Source: an uncultured Clostridia bacterium (GTDB lineage: Bacteria > Bacillota > Clostridia > Christensenellales > UBA1242). Taken from it: a stretch of 64,000 nt of DNA. The stretch spans positions 17,672-81,671 of the forward strand of contig CALVNR010000005.1 of the NCBI GenBank assembly GCA_944349905.1. The letters are read 5' to 3'. Each line of letters begins with the position of its first letter. The first letter of the stretch is position 1. The notes beneath the pieces were generated by a model. The model made no database searches. It was not told the origin of the DNA and worked only from the letters and a program-made list of their open reading frames with translations. Positions 42,101 through 63,548 of this stretch are shown one piece after another. Position numbers and translations under genes: made by a program.

Positions 42101-45100
42101 CTGTTTTTGTGTAATTGTTAATTGCAAACATAGTATCGTTTGCTTGAATGGAAATTTTATAAGAAACAATACCTAATTCTTCTTGCCATTGTTGATATGG
42201 GCTCGTCCAAGATATTTTGTCATTTGCTATTTTCGCATCAAGTGATTTGTTTTTTATGTTTGTTAAATTAATTTCAAATTTATCTGAATTTAAATAGTAT
42301 ATTTGCTCAGTAGTGTTGTTTTTTGCTACAAACTGAATACTTAATTTATAACTTTCTTCCAAATAGTTTGACAAGTCAATATAAATTTTGCTTTGTCCTG
42401 TCATGTAATTAATTTCTTCATCGTTTACTAGCACTTTTTCAATTCGTCCAATTTGTGCATTGTCGCTTAAATTTAACACAGCAACCCAAGAAGAATTTTC
42501 GTTTTTAGAAATAACTACATTATCAACAGTCTTGATTTTTCCAATAGTAATTATGTTTGAATTAGTAGAATTCAAGTATTTTGGATTTTTTGCAACAACT
42601 TTGAACTCTGCATTTTCTACTGTCAGATTTGTGTCTTCTATTATACTTGAAAGATTTATGCTTGTTCCAGAATAATTTTCCTTTACAACAACATTGTTTT
42701 TATAAATATCGTAAACGGTATTTTCTCCTACCGAATTCCAACTTAAAATATCTTGTGTGCCATTTGCATCAAAAGAAAGTATTGGCGCTGACATTTCCTC
42801 TACAAATATTTGTGTTGCCCCACCTGTTGTGGTTGCTGGTAAAGATTGCAAAATCAAATTATTCTCGCTTAAAAATTTAGGTTCTGTGTATGCCCAAACT
42901 TTAACACCCAATTTGCTTGCTTGTCTAAATTCATTATAAAATTCGGCATTTGTAATAAATTCATTAATCTTTTCTTGCAAATCAAATTCCTGTTCTAATG
43001 AATTTGTAAAGAAATTAATAGTTCTATTACCACTTTCTACAAACAATTCTATTTCCACAAAATAGTTTTCAATGTTTTGCAATTCCAAGTTACTGTATGA
43101 AATAGTTCCGTTTTGATAATTAAATCCAGTTGGAGAAGCCAACCTTTGAACTGTAAACTCCTTAGGACTACTATCCAAATAATAATTGTTTCCTTCTTTG
43201 TCTTTTGCAATTGCAACCACTTTCATTTGAAAATATTCTGGACGATTGATTATGTTATAACTACCTTGATTGTCTGTATTAACCTTTTCCCCATTAATAT
43301 AAATCTCATAATGGTCTACACAATCTTCTTGGTTTTGTGGAATAATATTTTCTTCAATCTTTTTGCCCTTCTCACCTTCTACTCCAAACAATGTATTAGA
43401 ATATACTTCATCAACATTTATAGTTGGTTTTGCAATTCTTGTAATGTTAATTGTTGCAGGCTCAGAATCAGGGTGTAAGTTGTTGTCAAAATAACTACCC
43501 GCCTTTGCAACTACTTCTAACACATAAGTTTTTTCTTGGTCAAAAGTTTCAAACTCGCTACTGCCAGATTTAATTAATGTTCTTGTAAATTCTCCTGTAT
43601 AACCTTCTGCATTTTTATCTACCTTAAAGCCATCAACTTCAACACCGTCTATTATTATTGAAATATAACCTGCATATTCAACATCTTTAATTTTAATTTT
43701 GTATACAACATTATTTTGTTCATTTATTTCTAACAATTCAATTTCTGGCGTGCTTATTTGCTCTTCAACAAAAAATTGATCTACCAAAATTTCTTGTTCA
43801 TCTACGAAATTACTATCTAAGTATAAATTCTCGTTTGTAGATAATGAAACAATTTCTATTTTATAATAACCAAAAGGCAACTTTTCATTTAACATCAGAT
43901 TGCTTGTTGTTGCAGATGTAAATTCTTTTTCGTTTAAATAGTTTTCGTCAGTTTTATAAATGGTGTATTTATATTCTACTTCTCCTTCTACTGCTTGCCA
44001 ACGATATTGTCCATTTTCGCTTTCTGTACTTTGAACAGCGTCTAAGATTGTAAGAGTTTTATAGCCAAATGAATTAATACTATCGCCATTATTTCTAAAA
44101 CACTCTATTTTTATTTGATTTTGTTTATTTTCTCTTGATAAATAATTTTTTAAATTTTTAAAACTTAATGTTGTGTAATTTTCTCCTATTTGAATTGAAA
44201 CATCAGAAACAAGATTATCGTTTATATATACATTAAATGAATTAGCAAATTCTACATTTTTAAAAATTAATTGAGAGTCTGTGTTTTGTTCATCAGCAAA
44301 TTGATGCGTAATATCACTTATTTGTGAAAGTTTATAAATATTGTAAACAAAAGGTTTTGAAGTTAAAACATTATTTGATGAATTGTCATCTATTGTGTAT
44401 GATTTTACTCCACTTGAAGAACTACTATCGCTTACTGGCAAAGCATAAACTTCAATAGTATTTTCACCTTCAATAAAAATCTCAGGCAATGTAAATGTAT
44501 ATCCATCTTTTATATTGTGAACAATTTCATAGCTTCCAACTTTTACTAGATAAGATTCCACATATTCATCATAATCTTCTTCAAATTTTATTTCTACGAT
44601 TTGTCCTTCAACAGTTATTGTTGGATTAGGCATAGACAATTTGGCAAATTTAATAGATTGACTGGCATTGCTGTTTAAATAATATTGCCCATCTTTCTCT
44701 CCGCCTAAAACTTGAACTGATATGTTGTAAATTCCATTTTCAAGTTCATTTAAAAATTCTTCTTGATTTGCTTGAATTATTTTTTGTCCACTTACACCAT
44801 TATTGTCAGAATAATGAACAATATATCCATTAGCTTGCTGGCTATCGTTTATATATAAATAGCCATCTACTCCATCAAACATAAAATCTGCGCTTGCTAT
44901 ATCATGTTTTACTAAAATATATGGAGTAGAAAGTTCTATTTTTTCATTATTAACATCATACGCAATTATATTAAGATTTATTTGCCCACTTGCAAATCTT
45001 CCAAAATCATATGTAAAAGAAGAAGTTTTCAATTTATCTTTGTTTATTTTATACCCATCAATAAAAATATCGTAGACTGCATCTTCAATTTCGTCCCAGG

Positions 45101-45764
45101 AAATAGTAGTTTCCAAACCTTGGTATTCTTCTGGAACATCAACATACAATCTAGAAATTGTGCTCATGTAATCATATACAACGGTAACACTTTGGGTTGC
45201 TTGGGATTGAGTTATGTAATTTGTTTCATCATCAAGAGCAATAATTTGAACTTTGTATCTGCCATACCCAAAACCATACTCAGCAAAATCAAGTTTGTTT
45301 TCATCTACAATAAATTGTCTATTGTCGTCTATTTTTACTATATACTCTTTGGCGTTTACAACTTTACCATCAACAATAGCAGAACTTTCTTGCCATTGTA
45401 AAACACCTTGCTTTGAAATCTTTATTATGTTAGGAGTTGAAAAAACATAATTTACAATTACTTGTGTTTGTGCAAGTGTTGTGTCATTGTAATTTGCAAA
45501 AACAAAAGTTGTTCCGCTTTCTTTTGCAATGTAGTTGTCCCCTTCTTTATGTAAAATGTTTGGATTTGAAAATGATATTTCTATATCTTGAAAGTCTACT
45601 CCTGTCAAACTAAGTTTTGATTTTATGTTGATTTGCTCTCCAATATCTAAAACTATTTTTTCTTGTGAAAATTTTCCATAGATAGAAGCTGGCTCACTAC
45701 ATGATGATAAAGTAAGCACAGAACAAAATGCAAACATAATAAAGAGTAAAACTTTTTTTAACAT
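36126..45764 (-). CDS. Giant surface lipoprotein (3212 aa)
   Basis: The N-terminus is a clear lipoprotein signal (MLKKVLLFIMFAFCSVLTLSSC) with Cys22 as the lipidated residue. Residues about 50-2750 are a long chain of beta-sandwich-like units that resemble Fn3/Ig modules. They recur with patterns such as ISWDEIEDAVYDIFIDG, YKISIQAND and LSWNSVGENTVYDIYKNN. The C-terminal ~400 residues begin with GSGTQSDPYIITNSQEFKNI near residue 2817, a module shared with the GLUG-like protein encoded at 53879. They then carry many short Gly/Asn beta-helix strands (GLVTLNSGIIQD, GGLVYENNNSYI). It is anchored to the outer face of the cytoplasmic membrane. A good GAGGGG SD site is present. Adhesion or matrix function is inferred only. 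Confidence 0.75.
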   Translation of the reverse strand: MLKKVLLFIMFAFCSVLTLSSCSEPASIYGKFSQEKIVLDIGEQINIKSKLSLTGVDFQDIEISFSNPNILHKEGDNYIAKESGTTFVFANYNDTTLAQTQVIVNYVFSTPNIIKISKQGVLQWQESSAIVDGKVVNAKEYIVKIDDNRQFIVDENKLDFAEYGFGYGRYKVQIIALDDETNYITQSQATQSVTVVYDYMSTISRLYVDVPEEYQGLETTISWDEIEDAVYDIFIDGYKINKDKLKTSSFTYDFGRFASGQINLNIIAYDVNNEKIELSTPYILVKHDIASADFMFDGVDGYLYINDSQQANGYIVHYSDNNGVSGQKIIQANQEEFLNELENGIYNISVQVLGGEKDGQYYLNSNASQSIKFAKLSMPNPTITVEGQIVEIKFEEDYDEYVESYLVKVGSYEIVHNIKDGYTFTLPEIFIEGENTIEVYALPVSDSSSSSGVKSYTIDDNSSNNVLTSKPFVYNIYKLSQISDITHQFADEQNTDSQLIFKNVEFANSFNVYINDNLVSDVSIQIGENYTTLSFKNLKNYLSRENKQNQIKIECFRNNGDSINSFGYKTLTILDAVQSTESENGQYRWQAVEGEVEYKYTIYKTDENYLNEKEFTSATTSNLMLNEKLPFGYYKIEIVSLSTNENLYLDSNFVDEQEILVDQFFVEEQISTPEIELLEINEQNNVVYKIKIKDVEYAGYISIIIDGVEVDGFKVDKNAEGYTGEFTRTLIKSGSSEFETFDQEKTYVLEVVAKAGSYFDNNLHPDSEPATINITRIAKPTINVDEVYSNTLFGVEGEKGKKIEENIIPQNQEDCVDHYEIYINGEKVNTDNQGSYNIINRPEYFQMKVVAIAKDKEGNNYYLDSSPKEFTVQRLASPTGFNYQNGTISYSNLELQNIENYFVEIELFVESGNRTINFFTNSLEQEFDLQEKINEFITNAEFYNEFRQASKLGVKVWAYTEPKFLSENNLILQSLPATTTGGATQIFVEEMSAPILSFDANGTQDILSWNSVGENTVYDIYKNNVVVKENYSGTSINLSSIIEDTNLTVENAEFKVVAKNPKYLNSTNSNIITIGKIKTVDNVVISKNENSSWVAVLNLSDNAQIGRIEKVLVNDEEINYMTGQSKIYIDLSNYLEESYKLSIQFVAKNNTTEQIYYLNSDKFEINLTNIKNKSLDAKIANDKISWTSPYQQWQEELGIVSYKISIQANDTMFAINNYTKTEILLSELESLVNTSFNSDNKINISIYSQLADFSSLISQTIYYGEIEQTNLQVNKMASVNQAQVSIVLSGSSDKLTQYKDSQIALKFENIWDGDISFDIVINDSDYSFEGLTLTGAYIGCNLTLEDNYYTIFINNSLFELEGENKIYLKVNKQNLISSDVKEYSITRNSNIENAVVDNHGLLTVTYGEIATNSLLLKLTIGSEVIYQQYSPLQTEIDLQELLSSKSGNITIELLVVDSNLNVLSNLSTYAIFNSKLAKVESIEIFNDGQMYFNLASASFVGEENNIEFIIKKDGGEEIQFYPTMVEGNAFKYEYSLDQLANIFNFKQAGNYTLSIANRERGYINSDFVDFKFGFAVEKIDSVLRQREALNKDFVIFKTLDTENDGLTTVGFRFVIKNHLNEIVANKNIKLSDDNSIIGYWDGNTNKFLLSQPSYSEEEQQAKVYKCFAFSINDLFNELGHGVYSLEVARVAKEADVYTLFDTKVFEIVKLNNVIEDAMSTLNVRIYQNVLYWTWQKPEEEWLPNNFFPSVYYITIWAKDNEIQKQYITSSSNKLDLTTLKLSSGDNFITIQAVSDNKDILASSTLENALSFYKYGVSKSLSLDSGKIVFDLSNNGQLDKTIDFVSVFDTSVTGENLANNLASIGADGFKDIYDFQSGTVNQQTIKLKFVATDSNGSNENGKVYYSTVNAMNLLPKFSVNSIDFITQLQNYIEENDGTDNTMNFEALKSFAKLIEKSSFGITDGEILFDDFGQQIPSGYYNVSTIQTTSNPESSFVDSDPSKSLLIYVASAPTMTIGNSYDSETGEELYQATYNCVNTVDDFASMVKATSYTMNFRAKTENGESSLYKFDISNVSNWTIEYNGQMLNGVIEGNENSFTINFTALGDYILDGVYLIDKAYEYNVYVYANGGANSCFGKNSKLNLVFLNLESKNISVVDGFVTITTSSNEVGSDILVKYKRKYAVGTSVSEEIKIVETDDYGKVILNDILKDYGEYEYVIFNVMGQLNQATKTMKLPSVSYGILNLYKLNTPILSTENNQLLVTAQAEDSNYGPFKFMVSSLDGYTKSENDYFNDETGNLGQLAYNHETLEQLPEITDVYFVSKTIDSINIDDYDNSGSNLPYFEKILNFGEQLIISSNKEQISLRKLPNITDLKLNKGNITWQEVEVTEIENAEIVYKVEVECYDDGNIDNIKTIETFWTKNNYFDTANVKTHFSQGNDFGFNFNIYAYVGKSADSGAELLEGGFIDISNAIQFVDDKFALYSSPTSRVGLTKQQAPEFYNQNQVYDGKIAILRKDDDNFSFDIKLIDSNSNRIDLVEGIDYIVDNNGIIKEEGNTSTKVYFISIVNNEYANGKAFSLEIYSYSDTTIKSDKITTTSLFKLKQLQEQDFNLMIENTDGVYKNILSFENYFESNIFNFQNNVYQIDIYKMTKEEESWKEEYKTTLTSENQIITNLDSDYLNNTFKFVVKPVSSSGKYLTSEEFIVSFFDGDNLIEENSFAYNQQQYKLQWSVNEQEKDYQYFVSLKYEDGSIEENYVEEFVSSEGKRTYFYQPNKMGKILQANLYAREKGFTIDENLNNSICMFTFAGQIESIEYKLFDSGSGTQSDPYIITNSQEFKNIAIRDSASNKVYFKLANTINLESNVFNQFVINKFYGELDGNGNTIELSISPSSSEIEQENSIIVDKDLTLGKTTAKLNMNKALSLFGSIEQNALIKNINIHLSFNDSNIQNLETTFVSGLAYQNFGTIQNINVNSVSLGTFDNLSSIALSGLVTLNSGIIQDCQINADIIAELPQKSVTLIYGSVAIINESKGRLIGCVNNGDIQITVSKDLTMVYVGGLVYENNNSYIYASGNNGIINILGNYSYDVSIAGIVVRNVNSQIDYVFNNGKITTSLTSTNNSSGIIFWQQFGKIGNIFESSDSGIITSSSNGSVDKLSNSAVYGYSNGSSFITGLTITKISTLENNQVFTYNAQYNLKIIVTGSETDKIYSVTLEKL

Positions 45765-51993: not shown

Positions 51994-52530
51994 ATGTTTT
52001 ACGGAAATATTAAATATAACGACATTGCAAATGGCGAAGGAGTAAGAACAAGTTTGTTTGTAAGTGGATGCACTCATCATTGCAAAAACTGTTTTAATCC
52101 TGAAACATGGGATTTTCGCTATGGAAACGAATTCACTCAAACCACAATAGACAATATACTAGAATCTTTGAAATATCCTCATATAAATGGTTTAACATTA
52201 TTGGGTGGAGAACCTATGGAACTTGCAAATCAAAAAGCTTTACTCCCCCTAGTTAAACAAGTAAAAGAAAAATATCCAGAAAAAACAATTTGGTGCTATA
52301 CAGGTTATTTATTTGATAAAGATTTACAAAAAGATGGGAAAGTTTATGCCGACTGGACAAATGAACTTTTAAAATATATTGATGTTTTAGTTGATGGTGA
52401 GTTTGTTGAAGAATTAAAGGATATAACTTTAAGATTTAAAGGGTCTGCAAATCAAAGAATAATTGATGTTCAAAAAAGTTTGGAAACAGGTAATATAGTT
52501 TTAAGCCCATACAATAAAAAAAGAAAATAA
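51994..52530 (+). CDS. nrdG: Anaerobic ribonucleotide reductase activating protein
   Basis: NrdG is a radical SAM enzyme that installs the glycyl radical on NrdD. The 178-aa product has CTHHCKNC (Cys26, Cys30, Cys33), the CX3CX2C cluster motif, and LTLLGGEPMELANQ in the SAM-binding region. The length fits the family. It is separated from nrdD by 10 nt, with AAGG close to the ATG, and the operon ends in a strong terminator. Confidence 0.95.
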   Translation: MFYGNIKYNDIANGEGVRTSLFVSGCTHHCKNCFNPETWDFRYGNEFTQTTIDNILESLKYPHINGLTLLGGEPMELANQKALLPLVKQVKEKYPEKTIWCYTGYLFDKDLQKDGKVYADWTNELLKYIDVLVDGEFVEELKDITLRFKGSANQRIIDVQKSLETGNIVLSPYNKKRK

Positions 52531-52561
52531 AAAAGATTTGACAAGAGTCAAATCTTTTTTT
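52528..52561 (+). terminator. Terminator of nrdDG
   Basis: An AAAAGATTTGAC/GTCAAATCTTTT stem with an AAGA loop and T run starts right after the nrdG stop. Confidence 0.88.
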
Positions 52562-52585: not shown

Positions 52586-53869
52586 CTAAAAGTCAATAAA
52601 TGTTGATAAAATCGCACCTGCATATAACCTTATCATATAGTCATTTGGGTGGTTTGTATAATTTGCCGAAATATCTAAATATTGATATCTTCTGTCGTTT
52701 GTGTTATTTGCTTGTTTTTTTGATAAAATCCCAACCGAAATTTCATACATATTTACAAATGTGCAACCAGATTGAGAGCCCATGTCACCAATTAAATTAA
52801 ATTTATTTGCTAGATCTGCAAGTAAAGGCATATATTCTGCATGAGGACCAAAGAACGTAGATTTTGGATTTGCAGTGAAAGAGCCTAACAAAATATAATC
52901 AGCGTTTGGCGAAAATGCTCGCAAATGATTTAATATAGTAGAAATATTTGATTTAAAAATATTCCCATTTAATTGTAGTGATGCATCATTCATTCCAAAA
53001 CCGATAATAATCAAGTCAAAACCTGTTTTGTTAAATGTATTATTGTATAATTGTTCAACTCCATAAGAACTTGCTTGTCCACCCTCACTTTCGTTAACTA
53101 TGGTAACTTTTGAATTATCACCATTGTAATATTTTTCTACTAAATAATTTTTAATAAGTTCAAACCATGTTGGAAGATATGGAGCAAATCCCATCATAGA
53201 CGATGCACTTGCCCCAACGCTTATACTATCGCCAAAAATTAAAATTTTTACAGGCTCTTTGTTATTTAATTTTTTTAATAAGTTAGGGTAGTTTTCAGGT
53301 TGAAATGAAGGAACTTCAAAACCTAAATCTTGACTGCTATCATATGTATAAGTAACAATTAAATGATTTGTTCTTGTCAATGCATTTTCTGCAATAACAT
53401 GATTACCAGAGTTTGTTCCACCGCCATCATTATAAGTAGAATTTATAAGACCTTCTTGATATTGCGAAGGAACATTTTTGTTATCAAGCCACTCATCTTG
53501 AACATAAGGCATTCCGTTGTTGTAAGCAAATGATATTTTATTCCCTTCAACTGAATATTGACTTGATGAATAAGTGATTTCACCAGAATAATTTTTAACA
53601 GAAACAATTGTTTTAGGAGTGTAAGCCAAATAGCATATTGCCTCGTTTGAAGATCCATATCTAATAGGCATAACAATTTCATCATATACAGTTATTTCGC
53701 CATTGTTTTCGTTTTTCCAATAAGGAGTAACAGTTTGTGCAAGAGTGAGATTTTCATTCCAATTTTTGGCATAAGCAGGAATTAAAACCGAGCACAAAAC
53801 TATTCCTACCACAAATATGATAATAGGAAATGAAATCAAAATTAAATTTTTAATTGACTTTGTTTTCAT
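52586..53869 (-). CDS. Membrane-tethered SGNH/GDSL hydrolase
   Basis: The 427-aa product has one N-terminal membrane segment (about residues 9-33). An exported beta-rich domain (about 40-200) follows, then an SGNH-hydrolase domain with GDSISVG near residue 213 (catalytic Ser), GFGMNDASL (block III Asn region) and NHPNDYM near the C-terminus with the catalytic Asp/His. Enzymes with this layout deacetylate or deacylate surface polysaccharides; the substrate here is not known. The ATG has GGAG. It follows the 1931-aa GLUG-like gene by 9 nt and probably belongs to the same transcript, which hints at processing of a surface matrix. Confidence 0.85.
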   Translation of the reverse strand: MKTKSIKNLILISFPIIIFVVGIVLCSVLIPAYAKNWNENLTLAQTVTPYWKNENNGEITVYDEIVMPIRYGSSNEAICYLAYTPKTIVSVKNYSGEITYSSSQYSVEGNKISFAYNNGMPYVQDEWLDNKNVPSQYQEGLINSTYNDGGGTNSGNHVIAENALTRTNHLIVTYTYDSSQDLGFEVPSFQPENYPNLLKKLNNKEPVKILIFGDSISVGASASSMMGFAPYLPTWFELIKNYLVEKYYNGDNSKVTIVNESEGGQASSYGVEQLYNNTFNKTGFDLIIIGFGMNDASLQLNGNIFKSNISTILNHLRAFSPNADYILLGSFTANPKSTFFGPHAEYMPLLADLANKFNLIGDMGSQSGCTFVNMYEISVGILSKKQANNTNDRRYQYLDISANYTNHPNDYMIRLYAGAILSTFIDF

Positions 53870-53878
53870 TTTTTCTCC

Positions 53879-56800
53879 TTATGCAACAAGCACCCATTCG
53901 TATGTTTGCAATCCTGACGCCGTATTATAACTATCAGTAACTTTTGTGCCTGTTAAATTGTTTACTACGCTTGCAGAAGAGGTATTTAAAGTAATTTCCC
54001 TATAAAGATTGTTGCTTAAATTTCCTTTTCCGCTTAATTGACCATAAAATTGTCCAATTCCTCCACCTGATTTAACGGTTAAAGCAACTTTTGTTATTCT
54101 ATTTTCTGCTACAGAAATCATGTCTGAAATCTGTCCTGCAATTACACCTACATATAGAGATGTTAAATTTGTTAAACTGTTTGACCACATAGAGTTTACT
54201 GTGCAGTTTTGTATTGTAGAACTAGAAGTATTTCCTGCAATAAGACCTAAAGCAAGGGAAGTCTCCAAAGAGTTAGATATATCTGCATTAACTCCTATAA
54301 CAGTTGCATTTTGCAATATTCCTGAAACTCCACCACCATTTTCAACACCATTTAATAAAAGATTGTTTATATAACAACTTGTAACCTTTATTCCATTTGC
54401 GCTGCCAACAAATCCTCCAGCGTTTGCTCCACTTAAATTATTTAGCGATGAATTTGACAATATAATATTTCCACTTTGCATACTGCCAACAATTCCGCCA
54501 ACATTAACTCCACTTAATATGTTTTCAATAGTTTCTGTGTTTCCAAAATCTGAATTTGATGATTTGCCCGCGACAGCACCACCTTCTTGTGCTGTAATTT
54601 GATTCGATCTGACCAAAACATTTACAAAATTGTCTCCTGATGAATTGCCAATAATTCCACCAGCAATATTATTTGATATTAATGAAAGGTTTAAAATTTC
54701 TATATTGTTAAATGAATTACTTTGTCCGTCTGCAACAAGCCCCCCAGCATAATCTCCGCCTGAAATAACTCCGCCTGAAATGACAATATTCTCAAAGGTG
54801 CAGTTTTGTGCATTTCCAACCAATGCGCTTGCCATTGCAGAAGTTGTTTGAATTTTTGGGGAGACTATATTTAAATTTTTAAATGTTGCATTTGTAGCAT
54901 AATTAAAAATACCATAACTATTATTTTGAGATAAAGAAATATTTGAAATTGAGAAGCCATTTCCATCAAAAACTCCTGCAAAAGTAGTTGTGCTGTCAAA
55001 CATCCCTTCCCAGCTTTCTTCGCTTAAATCTATATCTTTCATAAGTCTAAAATAAGTCGTTTCTTGACTTCGTGAAAGGGTGTAACTTTCAATATCTTTT
55101 AATGTTTCTGCATCGAAAACTAAATATGGGTCATTTTCTGTTCCGCTTCCCATTATTACTTCTGTTATTTCTCCAGCATTTGCAACATTTCTTAAAATTG
55201 GATAACTATATTCGCTCATTCCCCAAACTGAAATAAAGTCAAAACCAGCAAAATTAGAAGCAGATAGAAATTGATCTGTTGATAATAAAACTATTTGATT
55301 GGAAGCTTCTCCATTATAAACAGTCCTAAAGTTGTTTATATTCCATACATAATTGTAACTTAAACTGTTTGATTGACTCTTCCCTATAAAAGAACCTAAA
55401 TTGCTAAGACTTATTGAAGAACCAATATTCCCATGCATAAAAGATAATGTTATTGAAGAAAACTCGTCAACATTTCCTGCAAAACCACCTATCGAGCTAT
55501 CAATCGCATTGTTGTAATTTGAAGTTGTATAAGTTGTTGTAAATGAATTTGAAATATTTGAGTTTTCAACGCTGCCAACAAAACCACCAAGATTGTTTTG
55601 CCCGTTCAGATTTCCACTACTATAGCATTCTTCAATATTTGAACCATTAATTACTCTACCTGCAAACCCACCTGCAAAATAACCGTTTTGCTCAAAAGAA
55701 GCAGTAATGTTAACATTTGAATAACTATTTGAAATAGATGACTGATCTAATAAGCCCACTATTCCACCAACTGTTCCTTTGCAAATTATGTATCCATTTT
55801 CAACAAAACAATTTGTAATTATAGAAGAGATTGCCTCTCCTACAAGCACTCCTATATTTTCAGTTGATGATGTGCTTATTTCAAATACAGAAAGGCCCAG
55901 ATTTTTAATTTCTGCGTTGTCTATTGTTTTAAATAAACCAATATTTCCAGAACTTGAATTTATAACGAAATTGTAAATTTCTTTATTGTTTCCGTCAAAT
56001 GAACCTTTAAAATTGTTTATCGCCGTCAATTCTTGTTTTCTCAAATCCAAATCTTTTCCAAGTTTGAAGTATGTATTGTCTCCTTCTCCAGCAAAGTTGT
56101 CTAATCTTACAAATTGCTCATAAGAATTTATTACATACGGATTTTGCTCGCTACCATTTCCACTATCAAACCATTTATTAGAATTTAATGAAACGTTAGA
56201 ATTTGATTGACTTATTTCGAACGAAATTTCTTCAATATTATTTAAAGTATTTACGCTTTGACCATATCTAAATATTTTTGCAGTATATTGTCCGTAAACT
56301 AAATTTGTAAATTCAACACCACCAAATAAACCTGCCGTCTTTGTTTGAACAAGAGCGCCGTCTTTAAACAATTGAACAGTTGCCCCACCATCTGTGTTTA
56401 ATTTAAAAATCCCTTGTGCAGTAACTGTAGAAGAATTTTTGGTTGGAACAGGAATATTCCAAGTTCCGTCCATTTGCCAAATATTATCAAAATCAAATCC
56501 AGCATAACTAGATTGTTGATGCATTTGGGCAGATGAAAGTTCTACGGCTCCAGCAGACTTATCTGATTGCCCACTTAAGCAATAATTGTTCATCCAATTA
56601 TTATTAGCGCCTCTTCCAAAGCTTCTTCTTTTTGAATTAGTAAATCCCCCATCTTTATTTAGAGTTAATATTACATTTGAATAACAGTTTTTTATTATTG
56701 CATTGGCTGATGAATTATAACCTACAAATCCTCCATTTGTATCTAAGTCTGCAGAAATTGTCCAGATGGTTCTCTCAATCCACAATGAACCATAAGCGAA

Positions 56801-59674
56801 AGAATTTTCAATAAATGCATCATTCCTTGTTTCTCCCACAAAACCACCTATATGAGTCCATCCCCAAATTAAAACATTGTTCTCTCCTCCGCTAATGTTT
56901 TCGTTGACTGCATAACAACAATTAATTTGACCGCCATTCATTAACCCGATAAAACCGCCATTTGGAGTCCCCGCATCATTTCCATCACATTTAGCATTAC
57001 TATTAATTACGGCGCAATTTTCTATAATACCCCCAATTTGAGAATTTAAATTAGTTAAGCAACCTACAAAGCCTCCTACATAATTTGTCCCCTCTATAAT
57101 ACAATTAAGAACATTAACTCTTCTAATAATACTACCTATGTTCACTGCACCTGCTAGAGCCCCGCTATTACCAGAGTCGTTTGTATTTCTAAAATTAGAG
57201 TCTAGTAGAACAAAATCCAAAATTTTAGCATTACCCTCTATGGTTGAGAATAGTCCTAAGTTATCAAAACTTCCACTTGTAAAGTTTACATTTGAAATTG
57301 TATGCCCTGCACCATTAAATTCGCCACTAAAAGAATCTTTTTGGATATATGTATAACCATTGCAATCAATGTCGCTAGCAAGAATATATTTCCCATCACC
57401 AGAATAATAAATTGAATTATATGCATTTGTAGCAACCCCGATGAACATTTCAGGATTTTCCACAATATTGTAGCCATCGACAGTCATTTTCATTGCCCTT
57501 GAGTGTGTTTTTTCTGCATAGTTACCAATTATTTGAATAAATTGATAGTTGTTGCCATCTTCACAAACACGGCTTCTATCTATCATCCAGATCTGTCCTT
57601 GAGAATTAAAAATATCTAAAATATTTTGCCCATTGTATTGAGTTACGCCTGCAAGCTGATTTACATTTATTGTGCTATATCCTGTTCCCTGTGCGGAACC
57701 ACTTGTAGACAATCCCTCAACATAAAAAACATTGTTTAAGTTGCCAGATATAACCCCAGAAATTCCAAAATCAGCCTTGCCAAGATTGAAAGTAAAACTT
57801 GTTGAACCTGAATCATTACATGAAATTCCACAAGCCCAGTAAACATTGCCTCCTGCAGAAAGTGTAGCTTCTATATCTCCATAATTAAAACAATGATTAA
57901 TTTGATTGGCAGTCACACATGTTATTCCTCCGGCTTGCCCGCCTTTAATGTATCCTGCATTGTAACATTTTTCAATAACCCCATTGTTGTTGGCTGATAT
58001 CCCGCCTACAAATGAAGTCGCTGTCGTAGGCCCAACTTCACCATTATAATAAACCTCAATCTTTCCCAAATTAGCCGATAAGGAAATTGTTCCATTGTTA
58101 GAAGAAACCAAACCTCCTATGTTAGAAGAACTGCTAGCGAACTGACTTTCAAGCAAACGGAAATCAATATCGCTGTAATTATCACAATTAATAATTTTAC
58201 CATTATTTGCTGCGACGATCGTGCCTAAATCAAAATTCATAGTTGTGGTCAATACATATTCATTATTTCTAAAACTTATGTTTTCGATATTACCACCGTT
58301 GCCGAGTTCAATGATAAACCCAACTTTTGTCAAACCTGAATTTATTTTAAAATCGCTAATTTTTAACCTTTTAGCACTTTTACTTTCTCCAACATAAGAA
58401 CCATTGAATGCTTGAACTGTAGAATTTATATAGCCTATTGGATCAAAATTACCTTCGGCATTGCCATTTGTATCAACGCCTATAAAGGAAATATCTGTAT
58501 TTTGCATATAAAAATCACTTAAACCAAAATTTAAAGTTTTATTACTATTAATAGAAAAAGTTTTTCCAATTAATGACAATGCCTGTGGCGAAGAAATTAT
58601 ATAAGGATCGTTTGCAGTTCCTTCTCCGTCTATCCTTAAAGATTGATCATGAGGATTAAGCCAAATTTGTGGATTAAGATAAGAAGAAGAAAAGTCATAG
58701 TAAAAAGCAGGCATTTCCGTCGCTGTTGAGTTGATAAACTCATTAACATAATAATTTTGTCCATTTACACTTATTTTTTGCTGTCCTTTTATTTGTTCTT
58801 CGGTTGCTAAAACAATTTGCGTTGTGTCATTAGCCCCGCTTTTTACTCCGACTGAAACATTATTTAAATAAACAGCATTTTCAACAGTGCCGTTGTTTTG
58901 GTAAGCAATACCTGCTCCGCTTGATGTTATATTACCTGAATTATAAACTCGAGAGATTATCCCATTGTTTATACTAGCAATGCCAGCAGACAAACTGCCT
59001 AACACTTGCCCGTTGTTATAACAATCCTCAATTATTCCATCATTTTGTCCTACAAGCCCTGCAGAATTAGAACCATTTACCACGCTGTCATTAAAACAAT
59101 ATTTAATTTCTCCAGCACTTGTTCCTGCAATAGCCCCAACTATATTTTTCCCTTTAATCTCAGTGCTAGAAATAGAGAGATTGTAAACTTTTCCACTTTC
59201 ACTTATATATGAAAACAATCCCACACTGCTTTCTGAAGAGTCAATATACATTCCTGAGATAGTGTAACCATTCCCATCATACATTCCCGCAAGTGGGTTT
59301 GTTTGTGAACCTATTGCCTCAAAATTACCACTCATTGCATTGTTAAAGTCAAACAAAGATAAATTTATATCATTTACTTGCAAAAAGTTATTTGGTTTTG
59401 ATAAATCAAAATCTCCATTTTCATCTTTTTGATATAGAAAATAACGCACATAATTTAAATCTTCTGCATTTGAAACAAGATAAGGATTGCTCTCTGAGCC
59501 ATCTCCGCCAGAAAAAGGGACTCCATTTATTGTTACATTTGACCCTACATTAGCGCTTTGTTTTAAAAGAGCAGAAACTTGCAATAACAAACCCAGCCCG
59601 GCAAAACACATAACTGCCGAAACTATAAGCCAAACTATCAAAAATATTAAACTTTTTTTAGTTTGCAATTGCAT
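53879..59674 (-). CDS. Giant exported GLUG-like beta-helix protein (1931 aa)
   Basis: The ATG at 59674 is preferred (GGAGG three bases upstream); a slightly longer frame has no SD site. A signal region LIFLIVWLIVSAVMCFAGLGL is followed by a junction VSALLKQSANVGSNVTI that resembles those of the two neighbouring TasA-like proteins. The mature protein contains four 'DPY' modules near residues 50, 350, 1171 and 1506 (pattern GxGxExxPYxV/I). It also has dozens of short repeats of the GLUG type (GGISANNNGVIEKCYNAGYIKGG, GGFVGSVENSNIS), as in beta-helical surface proteins. No membrane anchor is seen at the C-terminus. It probably forms an extracellular rod; partner SipW lies downstream at 61238. 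Confidence 0.78.
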   Translation of the reverse strand: MQLQTKKSLIFLIVWLIVSAVMCFAGLGLLLQVSALLKQSANVGSNVTINGVPFSGGDGSESNPYLVSNAEDLNYVRYFLYQKDENGDFDLSKPNNFLQVNDINLSLFDFNNAMSGNFEAIGSQTNPLAGMYDGNGYTISGMYIDSSESSVGLFSYISESGKVYNLSISSTEIKGKNIVGAIAGTSAGEIKYCFNDSVVNGSNSAGLVGQNDGIIEDCYNNGQVLGSLSAGIASINNGIISRVYNSGNITSSGAGIAYQNNGTVENAVYLNNVSVGVKSGANDTTQIVLATEEQIKGQQKISVNGQNYYVNEFINSTATEMPAFYYDFSSSYLNPQIWLNPHDQSLRIDGEGTANDPYIISSPQALSLIGKTFSINSNKTLNFGLSDFYMQNTDISFIGVDTNGNAEGNFDPIGYINSTVQAFNGSYVGESKSAKRLKISDFKINSGLTKVGFIIELGNGGNIENISFRNNEYVLTTTMNFDLGTIVAANNGKIINCDNYSDIDFRLLESQFASSSSNIGGLVSSNNGTISLSANLGKIEVYYNGEVGPTTATSFVGGISANNNGVIEKCYNAGYIKGGQAGGITCVTANQINHCFNYGDIEATLSAGGNVYWACGISCNDSGSTSFTFNLGKADFGISGVISGNLNNVFYVEGLSTSGSAQGTGYSTINVNQLAGVTQYNGQNILDIFNSQGQIWMIDRSRVCEDGNNYQFIQIIGNYAEKTHSRAMKMTVDGYNIVENPEMFIGVATNAYNSIYYSGDGKYILASDIDCNGYTYIQKDSFSGEFNGAGHTISNVNFTSGSFDNLGLFSTIEGNAKILDFVLLDSNFRNTNDSGNSGALAGAVNIGSIIRRVNVLNCIIEGTNYVGGFVGCLTNLNSQIGGIIENCAVINSNAKCDGNDAGTPNGGFIGLMNGGQINCCYAVNENISGGENNVLIWGWTHIGGFVGETRNDAFIENSFAYGSLWIERTIWTISADLDTNGGFVGYNSSANAIIKNCYSNVILTLNKDGGFTNSKRRSFGRGANNNWMNNYCLSGQSDKSAGAVELSSAQMHQQSSYAGFDFDNIWQMDGTWNIPVPTKNSSTVTAQGIFKLNTDGGATVQLFKDGALVQTKTAGLFGGVEFTNLVYGQYTAKIFRYGQSVNTLNNIEEISFEISQSNSNVSLNSNKWFDSGNGSEQNPYVINSYEQFVRLDNFAGEGDNTYFKLGKDLDLRKQELTAINNFKGSFDGNNKEIYNFVINSSSGNIGLFKTIDNAEIKNLGLSVFEISTSSTENIGVLVGEAISSIITNCFVENGYIICKGTVGGIVGLLDQSSISNSYSNVNITASFEQNGYFAGGFAGRVINGSNIEECYSSGNLNGQNNLGGFVGSVENSNISNSFTTTYTTSNYNNAIDSSIGGFAGNVDEFSSITLSFMHGNIGSSISLSNLGSFIGKSQSNSLSYNYVWNINNFRTVYNGEASNQIVLLSTDQFLSASNFAGFDFISVWGMSEYSYPILRNVANAGEITEVIMGSGTENDPYLVFDAETLKDIESYTLSRSQETTYFRLMKDIDLSEESWEGMFDSTTTFAGVFDGNGFSISNISLSQNNSYGIFNYATNATFKNLNIVSPKIQTTSAMASALVGNAQNCTFENIVISGGVISGGDYAGGLVADGQSNSFNNIEILNLSLISNNIAGGIIGNSSGDNFVNVLVRSNQITAQEGGAVAGKSSNSDFGNTETIENILSGVNVGGIVGSMQSGNIILSNSSLNNLSGANAGGFVGSANGIKVTSCYINNLLLNGVENGGGVSGILQNATVIGVNADISNSLETSLALGLIAGNTSSSTIQNCTVNSMWSNSLTNLTSLYVGVIAGQISDMISVAENRITKVALTVKSGGGIGQFYGQLSGKGNLSNNLYREITLNTSSASVVNNLTGTKVTDSYNTASGLQTYEWVLVA

Positions 59675-60296
59675 TAACCTCCACTGACAGATAAAAGTCA
59701 TGAGCTTTAGTATCTATAAGTTGATCAAACTCAATTCCATCTTTTATTGTGATAACTAAATATTTAGAAATACTTTCACCTGTTGAAAGAGTTCCAAAAT
59801 TGTCGCATTCACTTAAAGAAAAATTTAAACTTTGATTTTCCAAATATTTATATTCCATTTGTGATGAAATAATAAATTGCTCACTTAAATTATTTAGTAA
59901 ATTGAAAGAGTAACTTATATCAACTGTAGATTGATTTTCAATTTCAATTTTTAATAAAAAATATCTATAACTATTTATTCCTCCAAAAACTGGTTGATTT
60001 AAAAAATTTCCTTCCTTAAAATCTTCATCTCGATTCTTCTCAAAAACCAAGGTCATGCTTGGTTCATCGGCTAGTTGTTGATAAGTAGTATTATCATTGG
60101 GACCTAAATACTCATAAATTTTTACAATTGATTTAGCTTGCCCTTTGTCAGTCACGATGATTTGATTATTAATTTGCAATGTTTGTGTAAGTAAAGAATA
60201 AACTACAACACCAAAAAAACATGCCATAATTGTCAAAGAAATAGCAAGTGCAGTAATTTTTAATTTTAAATTTTTAACACCAGTCCTATTTTCCAT
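59658..60296 (-). CDS. SipW-class exported protein, TasA-like paralogue 1 (212 aa)
   Basis: The product has a short basic start (ENRTGVKNLKLK), a hydrophobic segment (ITALAISLTIMACFFGVVVY) and the junction SLLTQTLQINNQIIVTDKG. It continues with beta-rich exported sequence (ISYSFNLLNNLSEQF, ISKYLVITIKDG). The stretch LTQTLxINNxI....GQxKxxVxxxEYL is shared with the 221-aa protein encoded at 60487, so they are paralogues. Such signal-junction patterns are typical of substrates of SipW-type signal peptidases (TasA/camelysin-like). It has a consensus promoter whose start lies only 7 nt from the ATG, with no SD site. It overlaps the giant gene's start by 17 nt. Confidence 0.72.
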   Translation of the reverse strand: MENRTGVKNLKLKITALAISLTIMACFFGVVVYSLLTQTLQINNQIIVTDKGQAKSIVKIYEYLGPNDNTTYQQLADEPSMTLVFEKNRDEDFKEGNFLNQPVFGGINSYRYFLLKIEIENQSTVDISYSFNLLNNLSEQFIISSQMEYKYLENQSLNFSLSECDNFGTLSTGESISKYLVITIKDGIEFDQLIDTKAHDFYLSVEVNAIAN

Positions 60297-60309
60297 AATT
60301 CTAATGATT

Positions 60310-60338
60310 ATTATATATAATTATTAAGTATTTATCAA
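60310..60338 (-). promoter_or_regulatory. Promoter of TasA-like paralogue 1
   Basis: TTGATA (60333-60338) and TATAAT (60310-60315) on the minus strand are 17 nt apart. The predicted start near 60303 leaves a 5' leader of only about 7 nt. Confidence 0.75.
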
Positions 60339-60436
60339 CTTTTTTGAAAAAAATTTGATAAAAAAATTAAAATATTGTTATAAAGTATGCATAAAATAAA
60401 AAATTTGAAAAATAATAAAAAAGTATAAAATTTGTT

Positions 60437-60464
60437 TTGAAAAATAAACTTTGTATGCTATATT
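60437..60464 (+). promoter_or_regulatory. Promoter of TasA-like paralogue 2
   Basis: TTGAAA (60437-60442), a 16-nt spacer and an extended -10 TGCTATATT (60456-60464) precede AAAGGAG and the ATG at 60487. Confidence 0.7.
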
Positions 60465-60486
60465 TATCAAAGAAAAGGAGAAAAAA

Positions 60487-61152
60487 ATGGATAAAGAAAA
60501 ACAAAAATCAATGAAAGTTAAAATCATGTCACTTGTTGCCAGCATAGTTATATGTTTCTTGTTGATTGGTGTTTCAGTTTATGCTGCTTTAACTCAAACA
60601 TTAACAATTAACAACAACATCACTATCACAACATCAGGACAAACAAAGGTTGCTGTTACAGTTTCTGAATACTTAAACAAAGCAAAGACTGCTGTTTCAG
60701 ACTCACCTGCATCAATATCTGATTGGGTTCAACTAATTAATAAAGCAGATTCAACAAACAGTGTTTCTATGAATAATGACACAGAAGTTGGTGGAGAAAT
60801 TAAAAATAAATTAAGTCCCATCAATTTTGATTTGCAAACAGGCGTAAACTACTATGCTTACAAATTCACATTCACTGACAACTCTGATTTAGGCGATAGC
60901 TTAAAAAGCTATGCTCACATTACTGCAACAGAAGTTTCAAACAGTCAACTTGATATTTATTATGGAGAAACTTTAATGGCTGGTATGACAAAAGCAAGTA
61001 GCACTGCTATTAACGACATTACAATTGAGCTAGAAAATGGCACTGGAAAAGATTTCTACATCATTGTAGCTTCAAATGCTGCTCTTAAAGATTTGGAAGA
61101 AATGGCTTCAACTCCATTTAACATTACAATTACTATTGACCAAGAAGCATAA
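60487..61152 (+). CDS. SipW-class exported protein, TasA-like paralogue 2 (221 aa)
   Basis: The ATG at 60487 follows AAAGGAG. The product has a basic start, a hydrophobic segment (IMSLVASIVICFLLIGVSVY) and the junction AALTQTLTINNNITITTSG. After that comes about 170 residues of Thr/Ser/Asn-rich beta-strand sequence with no Cys. Its N-terminal junction matches that of the 212-aa neighbour almost position by position, so the two form a paralogous pair. The signal peptide ends VYA, which suits cleavage by the SipW-type enzyme encoded 86 nt downstream. A fibre-forming matrix protein is a reasonable inference. Confidence 0.78.
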   Translation: MDKEKQKSMKVKIMSLVASIVICFLLIGVSVYAALTQTLTINNNITITTSGQTKVAVTVSEYLNKAKTAVSDSPASISDWVQLINKADSTNSVSMNNDTEVGGEIKNKLSPINFDLQTGVNYYAYKFTFTDNSDLGDSLKSYAHITATEVSNSQLDIYYGETLMAGMTKASSTAINDITIELENGTGKDFYIIVASNAALKDLEEMASTPFNITITIDQEA

Positions 61153-61176
61153 TAAAACAAAAATATTTTAAAAATA

Positions 61177-61201
61177 AAAGGCTATTAAATAGCCTTTTTT
61201 T
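61177..61201 (+). terminator. Terminator of TasA-like paralogue 2
   Basis: An AAAAGGCTATT/ATAGCCTTTT stem with a tiny loop and T run separates the gene from sipW. Confidence 0.8.
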
Positions 61202-61225
61202 CTTTGTAAAAACTTCTTAATTGAT

Positions 61226-61231
61226 TATAAT
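61226..61231 (+). promoter_or_regulatory. -10 box of sipW, leaderless arrangement
   Basis: TATAAT ends six bases before the ATG at 61238. TTTGTA at 17-nt spacing may be the -35. No SD site is present. Confidence 0.6.
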
Positions 61232-61237
61232 AAAACT

Positions 61238-61975
61238 ATGAGTAATATAGAAACAAAAATAAAAGCACAGAGAGTCACAAAAATATTAAATATAATTTTT
61301 AATATTATTTTTGTTCCATTTATCATATTTGCATCAATATTTACTCTTTCAGTTGTATTTTCAAAAATCAACACTGGTGTGCCTTCTGTTTTTGGATATA
61401 CTCAAATCCAAGTTGTTTCAGGTTCAATGGTAAGTGCAGGTTTTAATGTTGGTGACAAATGTTTTGTTAAATCTACAAATCCTGACGAATTGCAAAAAGG
61501 AGATTATATTGCGTTTTTTCAATTTGCTGATCCTGACTGCTCTTCTCATGCGCAGGTTACCATCAAAAACAGACCTGATGCAAAACCTGATACCTCTAGA
61601 ATAGTTTTCCATGAAATAATAGATATTACAACAGATATGAATGGTGAGAAATGGTTTACAACAAAAGGACCTGACAATGCAGAACCTGATGCTATTGAAA
61701 TACATGAGAGATATGTTGTAGGAAGGTATGTTGAAGAAGAGAACTTTTGGACTAAGTTAATAACTTTCATAACTTCTACTTGGGGCGTTGTTGTACTAGT
61801 AGTTCTTCCTTGCACATTAATTATAGGTGTAGACACATATCAGTTGATTGTAACATCTTATGAATATTCCACAATGAAAAAAGAAACAACTGAGGAAAGC
61901 ATTTTAAACAATATGGTTGAAGAAAACATAACAACAGCAAAAAAACGGGAAAAGAAAACAAAAAAGCAAAACTAG
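61238..61975 (+). CDS. sipW: SipW-type (ER-like) signal peptidase I
   Basis: Signal peptidases of this group cut selected exported proteins such as TasA. The 245-aa product has an N-terminal TM (about residues 17-41) and QVVSGSMVSAGFNVGD with catalytic Ser63. IVFHEI carries His125 in the place of Lys, as in SipW/archaeal/ER-type enzymes, and WFTTKGPDNAEPD forms the conserved acidic box. A C-terminal TM (WGVVVLVVLPCTLIIGV) is followed by a Lys-rich tail. Length and dyad fit SipW. Located beside two SipW-class substrates. No SD site; probably leaderless. Confidence 0.9.
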   Translation: MSNIETKIKAQRVTKILNIIFNIIFVPFIIFASIFTLSVVFSKINTGVPSVFGYTQIQVVSGSMVSAGFNVGDKCFVKSTNPDELQKGDYIAFFQFADPDCSSHAQVTIKNRPDAKPDTSRIVFHEIIDITTDMNGEKWFTTKGPDNAEPDAIEIHERYVVGRYVEEENFWTKLITFITSTWGVVVLVVLPCTLIIGVDTYQLIVTSYEYSTMKKETTEESILNNMVEENITTAKKREKKTKKQN

Positions 61976-61991
61976 AAATGTTTTGCTTTTT
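61961..61991. terminator. Bidirectional terminator between sipW and the ADP-ribosylglycohydrolase gene
   Basis: An AAAAAGCAAAAC/GTTTTGCTTTTT stem with a 7-nt loop overlaps the sipW stop and lies 6 bases from the stop of the convergent gene. Confidence 0.85.
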
Positions 61992-61996
61992 ATTTT

Positions 61997-62794
61997 TTAA
62001 TTTTTCACTTCATCAATATTTTTATCAATCTCACTATAACATCTATTCAAAATGTCAACAAACTCAACCGGAAGTTTCTGTAATGCTTGCTCTTTTAACT
62101 TTTCATCAATACCATACATCGCCTCCGCCATACTTCCAACAATACAAGCATTTGTATCAGTATCACCTCCAAAAGAGATTGCTTTTTTTATACTATCTTC
62201 AAAACTTTTTGCTTTAAATAATGAAAATAAACATAAATCTATAGTTGTAGCACATGTATAATTAAACTTTTTAACAACAGGCTTTTTTATTTTTAAATTT
62301 AATTTTGTTACAATTTCTTTTTTAGTTAATCCTTGTCTTGCATAAAAAATTATTGATGCGACTATTTGTGCACATTTTATTGCTTCTTCTGAATTATGTG
62401 AAGGTATAGTTGCAAGATATGCATTGTTTAAAACTTCTTTTTCTGAATTAAAAAGATAACCAACAGGAGAAATTCTCATCATTGCACCATTTTCAGAGCT
62501 GTATCCTTCAAAATTACCTTTTGCCCACTTCAAAAAACTGGGAGAAAACATTTTTTCAAAATATGGCTTCAAGTTGCTTGTCAAATTCTCATAATTTAAA
62601 GCGTACTCTTTCAATTTTTCTTCATATTTACAATTATTTAAAATTGCATCTGCAATAGCAATAGTCAATATTGTATCATCACTAAAAAAAGAATTATTTT
62701 CAATAATATTTTTTATTTTAATTTTTTTTACAAATTTTGTCTGATTAAATTCATATATTGAACCAGCCAAATCCCCAATAATAGCTCCTAACAT
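61997..62794 (-). CDS. ADP-ribosylglycohydrolase (DraG family)
   Basis: Members of this family hydrolyse ADP-ribose from proteins or small molecules with two Mg2+ ions. The 265-aa product has the metal ligands in SDDT (Ser38-Thr41) near the start and GGDTDTNACIVG (residues 209-220) near the end, plus the family opening GAIIGDLAGSIYEF. All key acidic residues are present and the length is normal. Substrate unknown. The ATG follows GGGGG. It is convergent with sipW. Confidence 0.92.
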   Translation of the reverse strand: MLGAIIGDLAGSIYEFNQTKFVKKIKIKNIIENNSFFSDDTILTIAIADAILNNCKYEEKLKEYALNYENLTSNLKPYFEKMFSPSFLKWAKGNFEGYSSENGAMMRISPVGYLFNSEKEVLNNAYLATIPSHNSEEAIKCAQIVASIIFYARQGLTKKEIVTKLNLKIKKPVVKKFNYTCATTIDLCLFSLFKAKSFEDSIKKAISFGGDTDTNACIVGSMAEAMYGIDEKLKEQALQKLPVEFVDILNRCYSEIDKNIDEVKN

Positions 62795-62861
62795 TTTTTC
62801 CCCCTATGATTTAATTGCTTACGATCAGAAAATCTTATATCTATTCATCAAAACATTTGTC

Positions 62862-63494
62862 TTAGTTTTTATAAATTTCATTGTTTTCTTCCAATCTTTT
62901 AATAAAAGCTGAAACTTTACTAGCCAACTGTTTATGTCCATACAATGTTAAATGTTCTCCATCTTCACCTATATTTAAATCTATACCAGAAATAAAAAAT
63001 AAACCATGCTTTTTTGTAGCTTCTTCTAAAAGTTTATTCAATTGCAATGTTTTTTCATTTGCTCCTTTGTAATATTTTTTTGTGATAATGGTATTTTCAA
63101 TAATTTGTGGTGGACTAATTATAATAACTTGAGAGTTTGTTATTTTTTTTATTTCTAAAACTAATTTTATAATATTATTTGCTATTTTTATTGAAGAGTC
63201 ATTATATTCACTCTTGCAGTCATTTGTTCCCAATTGAATAATTACAATATCTAAATTTTTATATTTTTTTAAATCATCATGTATTGTCAAAAATGCATTT
63301 CTATTTTCAAGCCATTTATTTTCGTGCGCTACACATCTTCCGCACAATCCATCTATATACAAATTGTGCTTTATTAAACTATACCACCAGCAATCATGCT
63401 TATCATATTGCATAGGAATAGCGTTTTTTGAATAACCATTTATATTTGGAATATATCCCCAAGTATTAGAATCTCCATAACATAATATGTTCAT
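62862..63494 (-). CDS. SGNH/GDSL hydrolase (small, cytosolic type)
   Basis: The ATG at 63494 follows GGGGAG; a longer frame has no SD site. The 210-aa product has GDSNTWGY (catalytic Ser9), a block II-like GRCVAHENKW stretch, LGTNDCKSEY with the block III Asn, and DGEHLTLYGHKQLA with the Asp/His of block V. It is a typical lysophospholipase/esterase-like SGNH enzyme. No signal peptide is present, so it works inside the cell. Substrate cannot be told. The gene lies between DraG and tRNA-Ser on the same strand. Confidence 0.9.
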   Translation of the reverse strand: MNILCYGDSNTWGYIPNINGYSKNAIPMQYDKHDCWWYSLIKHNLYIDGLCGRCVAHENKWLENRNAFLTIHDDLKKYKNLDIVIIQLGTNDCKSEYNDSSIKIANNIIKLVLEIKKITNSQVIIISPPQIIENTIITKKYYKGANEKTLQLNKLLEEATKKHGLFFISGIDLNIGEDGEHLTLYGHKQLASKVSAFIKRLEENNEIYKN

Positions 63495-63548
63495 ATATTT
63501 CACTCCCCCCCCAAAATAATTATCGCACAATTTATTATACAAAAAAAA

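Follow-up and report, generated by a model that had tools for sequence, protein, structure and literature searches.

The stretch of DNA considered here (64,000 nucleotides of contig CALVNR010000005.1 from an uncultured Clostridia bacterium; below, the window) carries at positions 52586-61975 a divergent pair of gene units, tlpB-giant-sgnh on the minus strand and tlpA-sipW on the plus strand, where Tlp is a working name for small SipW-type proteins. It is proposed, with moderate confidence, that these five genes encode a surface-fibre system of the TasA/SipW type that works without sortase and has gained a giant repeat protein as a third SipW-type substrate. No match to the sortase family PF04203 was found in the source genome (G000; 1.03 Mb, 12 contigs, 98% complete). 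The first-pass annotation of this DNA took 53879..61975 as the whole system, a span that is too short, as it omits the SGNH gene at 52586-53869. The features of the locus are listed below (aa, amino acids; the slash marks the predicted cut).

52586..53869, minus strand: SGNH/GDSL hydrolase, 427 aa (PF13472), with a hydrophobic N-terminal helix, a beta-rich accessory domain (~50-180) and the SGNH domain (~205-427)
53879..59674, minus strand: giant GLUG/beta-helix-type protein, 1931 aa (PF05342), predicted to be secreted, with orthologues in five further loci
59558..59578, minus strand: junction of the giant, VSA/LLKQ, residues 33-39, cleavage point predicted by analogy
59658..60296, minus strand: TlpB, 212 aa, putative small SipW-type substrate forming a separate clade, its gene immediately preceding that of the giant in 6/6 loci
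60183..60203, minus strand: junction of TlpB, VYS/LLTQ, residues 32-38
60297..60486, no strand: divergent intergenic region, mean column identity 44% across seven loci
60487..61152, plus strand: TlpA, 221 aa, putative small SipW-type substrate and candidate main fibre subunit (AlphaFold2 model)
60577..60597, plus strand: junction of TlpA, VYA/ALTQ, residues 31-37
61238..61975, plus strand: SipW-like signal peptidase of the endoplasmic reticulum (ER) type, 245 aa, Ser63/His125 (TIGR02228)

A common junction in the two small proteins and the giant had been claimed from the sequence, and it is present as quoted: a hydrophobic helix is followed by VYA/ALTQ in TlpA, VYS/LLTQ in TlpB and VSA/LLKQ in the giant. 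The cut was placed at the slash by analogy with TasA, whose exact cleavage site we take to align with this position. LepB, a peptidase of the P type, is reported to process the TasA site poorly (PMC10269814). All junctions of the 19 small proteins compared contain V, then Y, W or F, then A or S, with Q at the same place, V and Q being invariant in the alignment. The giants of six loci read VSALLKQ (twice), VSSALTQ, VSSSLTQ, VFSALQQ and AFGLLRQ. The pattern [VAT][YWFS][ASG]...Q is thus present in 19/19 small proteins and 6/6 giants (window included), a count that does not by itself prove the A/S/G and Q, because locating the pattern demands them. A profile was built from 11 small-protein N-termini, giants excluded, and compared with the whole 1.03-Mb genome. 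It retrieved the giant at an expectation value (E) of 9.2e-5, together with TlpA, TlpB and a third Tlp encoded on contig 3 (all three members of the profile), and the next non-member followed at E 0.19. When the 14 junction residues were shuffled, the true score was reached by 0/300 shuffles in five of the six giants and by 3/300 in that of L054. Shuffling of the residues before the junction gave 1, 2, 2, 3 and 6 of 300 for five giants and 35/300 for L054; since shuffling of either segment lowers the match, both count. Chance likeness of the junctions was considered and is ruled out by the whole-genome search and the junction shuffles, and at the level of sequence the resemblance between TlpA, TlpB and the giant is real.

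A second comparison was made between a profile of all 19 small proteins and 306 control N-termini. Five of the six giants scored 13.3-18.3 bits, and the L054 giant was weak (7.4 bits). At least 13.3 bits were reached by 15 of the 306 controls, all of them proteins of 185-228 aa; 14 lie in sipW clusters and the remaining one (L054:13060-13695) lies ~8 kb from sipW, and these 15 proteins may themselves be SipW substrates. The controls were taken from the window and the fetched loci, many of them sipW loci, so the whole-genome test is the fairer one. Downstream of the junction, strong hydrophobic residues occupy positions Q+4, +8 and +10 (54/57 small-protein and 14/18 giant positions), as against 6/57 and 1/18 at Q+3, +7 and +9. 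This strand-like pattern is suggestive only, since it was counted after the sequences had been seen and the six giants include two that barely differ in this part.

The comparison of the N-termini suggested in the first-pass annotation came out in its favour, as the junction is kept in all six giants and the lineage profile is matched. The curated SipW-signal model TIGR04088 (cut-off 19 bits) weighs against the proposal: TlpA gave 13.8-16 bits, 3 of the 19 small proteins were listed at E<=0.1, and the giant was not listed. The last result would also be expected if the giant were matured otherwise than by SipW. The same genome holds one other signal peptidase I, whose sequence has the P-type Ser and Lys; Ser stands at P2 of the giant in four of six loci but in none of the 19 small proteins; and the large proteins that stand in the giant's place in the type-2 loci described below have different signal peptides. 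Maturation by another route is nevertheless judged rather unlikely. The junction itself supplies much of the profile match, it is kept in six of six giants although the full-length orthologues are only ~40-49% identical to the window protein, and no other non-Tlp protein of the genome matches better than E 0.19. 

The peptidase had been described as SipW-type with Ser63 and His125, and this identification was confirmed. The protein scores 65 bits against TIGR02228 (cut-off 51.85), and both residues are invariant in 11/11 aligned SipW proteins, forming a Ser-His dyad of the ER type without Lys. Against the Bacillus SipW equivalog NF046067 it gives 63.5 bits where 190 are needed; by these scores it is a distant SipW relative and not the Bacillus equivalog. 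A profile of four SipW proteins produced a weak match to the signal-peptidase-complex subunits SEC11A/SEC11C (best E 0.0026). A second sipW, with one convergent tlp gene, is located on contig 3 of the same genome (L048:6147-7586). Its product shares 39% identity with the window SipW, and the shortest path in the tree leads from it to the SipW of L055, but the history of the two copies is undecided because seven of the nine inner forks of the SipW tree are open. Among 112 genomes of the genus, the SipW profile matches 34, some only partially. More distant SipW-like proteins of the genus (L006, L009, L011, L089 and others) carry long insertions or extensions in open frames of ~400-645 aa, and one or two genes for small secreted proteins often lie next to them.

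The small proteins had been called two paralogous TasA-like proteins. Both are present, but they are only ~24% identical and belong to separate clades in the tree of the 19 small proteins, and homology with TasA was not detected. The best start of TlpA is the ATG at 60487, preceded by AAAGGAG. The TasA/camelysin family PF12389 has no match in the source genome and is not listed for the 19 small proteins at E<=0.1; Pfam and NCBIfam searches with these proteins gave scattered weak matches only, and a sequence search against PDB gave none up to E 10. In the AlphaFold2 model of TlpA (predicted local distance difference test score, pLDDT, 89.5), a helix spans residues 3-35, a strand at 38-49 comes right after the junction, and the rest is beta-rich. 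The Foldseek comparison of this model with PDB yielded weak matches, headed by self-complemented FimA pilins; TasA is not among the fold matches listed, which does not exclude a TasA fold.

A matrix or fibre role of the Tlp proteins is suggested by analogy. If there were no fibre, the Tlp proteins would be secreted or surface-located monomers, with the giant as a further cargo of a dedicated secretion route. This would agree with the lack of any TasA, camelysin or pilin family match at cut-off, and the fold matches perhaps reflect only a common arrangement. It is nonetheless regarded as improbable, as a strand-passing subunit fits the strand right after the predicted cut, the leading place of the FimA pilins among the Foldseek matches, and the position of the tlp genes beside sipW in the window and in related loci, as is the case for TasA/camelysin genes.

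The first-pass annotation had proposed a search for conserved linkage in relatives, and this revealed three further complete loci (one with a split giant), two cut by contig ends and one deletion relic. Nine close SipW loci (E<=1.1e-90) occur in eight of the 112 genus genomes. All five genes are found in the same order in the window genome, in G026 (with one more Tlp) and in G083. L055 (CALWRL010000005) also has all five, with the giant split into two open reading frames (ORFs) and one more Tlp. In G101 (L051), sipW, tlpA, tlpB and the start of the giant run up to the contig end, and the tail of sgnh terminates another contig, flanked by the gene that also adjoins sgnh in the window. The locus of L054 (CALWPE010000092) is likewise cut by a contig end. 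In G074 only a Tlp and SipW are found nearby, and the G097 contig with a close SipW match is 4 kb long. In G033, C-terminal fragments of SipW and of the giant, encoded on opposite strands, abut each other (L050:8141-9263), with an intact sgnh adjoining. A single deletion across the locus would seem to account for this relic, which suggests that here, too, the genes once stood together.

The genes for TlpB and the giant go together. The TlpB clade has six members (support 100/99), the tlpB gene overlaps that of the giant by 4-17 bases in five of six loci and abuts it in L055, and at E<1e-90 TlpB occurs in 4/112 genus genomes, exactly those with the locus, the next genus match being at 3e-24. 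That the genes for the giant and SGNH stand beside a tlp-sipW cassette merely by chance is very unlikely. In favour of chance, SipW is matched in 34 genus genomes as against four for TlpB and five for SGNH, and the closest SGNH proteins outside the genus lie in stretches without sipW, Tlp or giant matches, but this reading is disfavoured by an order and orientation kept while the giants have diverged to 40-49% and SGNH to 59-66% identity to the window proteins, and by TlpB being found, in the 112 genomes, only where the giant is.

In the type-2 arrangement of G021 and G078, a protein of 1486 or 1483 aa with InlB-B and Listeria-Bacteroides repeats is encoded in a similar place, so the large partner of the sipW cassette changes between species. 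These proteins have a different signal, VYA/DW or TLA/DW. The type-2 loci (L046:2034-9994 and L085:2632-9764) contain two further small proteins, and in each locus a SipW-like junction is present in one of them or in both. As an aromatic residue at P2' is reported to hinder LepB (PMC10269814), the Trp at P2' of the type-2 proteins might still mark a SipW site.

The giant was correctly recognized as a 1931-aa GLUG-like protein of the beta-helix type. It scores 35.4 bits against PF05342 (cut-off 27.7; 46.7 bits in the G083 orthologue), and 15.7 bits against PF07581 GLUG, below the cut-off of 20.5 that the G083 orthologue passes with 31.6. From the first ATG the ORF would encode 1940 aa; the alternative start at 59674, giving 1931 aa, is preferred because of its 17-base overlap with tlpB and a GGAGG three bases upstream. 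A profile of three giant sequences matched chains of IgA1 protease, including 3n6z (best E 2.2e-15), the best stretches covering residues 1135-1453; the matched part of these structures is presumably their beta-helix. The M26 catalytic-domain model is not listed for the giant in the Pfam scan. A beta-helix has ~23 residues and rises 0.48 nm per turn, from which a continuous helix of the giant is estimated to be near 40 nm long. In a search of 61 relatives, the repeats match 36 genomes, and a near-full-length protein is found only in G026.

The SGNH hydrolase had been described as membrane-tethered. Its family is borne out (39.1 bits against PF13472, cut-off 32.9), and S215, N294 and H407, which we take to be the SGNH catalytic blocks, are invariant in 5/5 orthologues. 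The tether, a prediction from the hydrophobic N-terminal helix, is doubtful, as the N-terminus is poorly conserved among the orthologues and three of the four closest homologues outside the genus look like lipoproteins; the window N-terminus may be an anchor or a cleaved signal. Of the 112 genus genomes, five encode this protein: G033, with its relic, and the four that carry the locus. The model has a pLDDT of 73, and its fold matches include the CE2 and CEX (mannan) esterases 4xvh, 6hfz and 2wao at low template modelling (TM) scores of 0.27-0.39. SGNH matches occur in 31 of 396 genomes of the order, and three of these 31 belong to the genus. At E 1e-3, nothing in the stretches retrieved around the four closest proteins outside the genus (G410, G280, G375 and G188) matched the window SipW, TlpA, TlpB or giant, whereas two control loci gave matches. 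Three of these four proteins start with lipoprotein-like signals, although the window protein has no lipobox; one of the four has a beta-galactosidase gene next to it, and among three SGNH loci of more distant kinship two lie near a rhamnosidase or sugar-binding proteins. The enzyme was thus probably recruited from glycan use. The SGNH homologue loci outside the genus are L115-L121; several of the proteins have lipoprotein-like starts, and some genes are near those for sugar-binding proteins, a rhamnosidase or a beta-galactosidase.

In the proposed fibre locus, SipW would cut all three substrates at V-x-[A/S/G]/x-x-x-Q (the cut being at the slash after the bracket; one giant has A-x-G instead), and cleavage would free a mature N-terminal beta-strand. 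The donor strand of TasA is reported to begin at the SipW cut (PMC9674648). TlpA might polymerize in the manner of TasA, each subunit inserting its strand into the following one. Since tlpB always accompanies the giant gene, TlpB would be the giant's adaptor or nucleator in a TapA-like role. The giant could attach to the fibre end, or stay at the surface as a ligand-binding beta-helix rod. SGNH, whose family has members in glycan-use loci, would de-esterify a nearby surface, matrix or host polysaccharide. A bolder and only tentative possibility is that the giant's own SipW-freed, donor-like strand, with hydrophobic residues spaced at Q+4/+8/+10 like those of the small subunits, enters the groove of TlpB or TlpA, which would place the giant rod on the fibre without a sortase. 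Such loci could in that case serve as modular platforms on which different giants are displayed, of the GLUG type here and of the InlB-B type in G021 and G078.

Candidate regulatory sites in the region are as follows.

52529..52560, minus strand: terminator-like hairpin 3' of sgnh, consistent with a tlpB-giant-sgnh transcript
61176..61198, plus strand: terminator-like hairpin between tlpA and sipW (pattern match)
61961..61991, no strand: two-way terminator-like hairpin at the end of sipW (pattern match)
60338-60310, minus strand, and 60344-60373 and 60437-60464, plus strand: promoter-like matches in the intergenic region, the first being the best (placement only)

These sites are not taken as evidence because their numbers are close to those in shuffles: five terminator-like hairpins in the region against 4.4 expected, which is not above chance, and 50 promoter-like matches against 48.8. 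The alignment of the divergent intergenic region from seven loci contains no clear shared operator. A gene of the ADP-ribosylglycohydrolase type and a second small GDSL hydrolase (61997-63542, minus strand) adjoin the locus. Elsewhere in the window, a 3640-aa ORF with a weak SPP1_Dit match only lies beside a gene of the phospholipase D family (11883-22805, minus strand), and a 3212-aa ORF has no Pfam match at E<=0.01 (36126-45764, minus strand).

Searches of the open-licence literature found nothing on SipW together with GLUG, on SipW in uncultured gut bacteria or on TIGR04088, and for TasA with GLUG no title on the subject. The nearest known systems are described below as far as the available parts of the sources go. 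The tapA-sipW-tasA operon of B. subtilis likewise has a dedicated SipW, overlapping genes, a co-encoded minor SipW substrate and, as its major subunit, a beta-sandwich protein whose N-terminal strand lies at the SipW cut (PMC9674648; PMC10151520). It differs in being an operon described without a giant or an esterase, while the window genes form two divergent units and their Tlp proteins showed no detectable TasA homology in the searches described above. In C. perfringens, the sipW-bsaABCRSD operon combines sipW, a fibre-forming secreted protein and the putative secreted proteins BsaB, BsaC and BsaD, and polymerization needs no sortase (PMC7395162). However, this operon contains two-component genes, which the window locus does not, and the part of the paper available mentions neither a giant GLUG protein nor an SGNH enzyme (PMC7395162). 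The TasA-CalY-CapP system of B. cereus is also sortase-independent, and its three proteins, one of them a chaperone-like assembly factor, are said to be processed by SipW (PMC13082335). A SipW substrate other than a fibre subunit is thus already known in CapP; this protein, for which the source cites residues up to number 279, is a small one and not a giant repeat protein (PMC13082335).

Two further comparisons concern single proteins. The repeats of the giant match PF05342 and 3n6z, as in the N-terminal beta-helix/GLUG region of IgA1-protease (M26) proteins, from which the giant differs by its SipW-type signal and by the M26 catalytic model not being listed for it. The window hydrolase may share a beta-rich N-terminal domain followed by an SGNH domain with the two-domain CE2/CEX esterases, the fold matches to 4xvh, 6hfz and 2wao having the low TM scores given above for a model of limited pLDDT. 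What is new here is a giant that is conserved, bears a signal of the SipW type and has a small protein of its own as partner. In known systems, as far as the sources available describe them, SipW handles small proteins (TasA, TapA, CalY, CapP and BsaA). If the proposal is correct, a conserved substrate of ~1,900 residues widens the range of SipW export and suggests how sortase-free bacteria with genomes of ~1 Mb display very large surface proteins. The locus also offers a compact, testable set of one peptidase, two small subunits, one giant and one enzyme, with a natural loss in G033 and natural exchanges in the type-2 loci.

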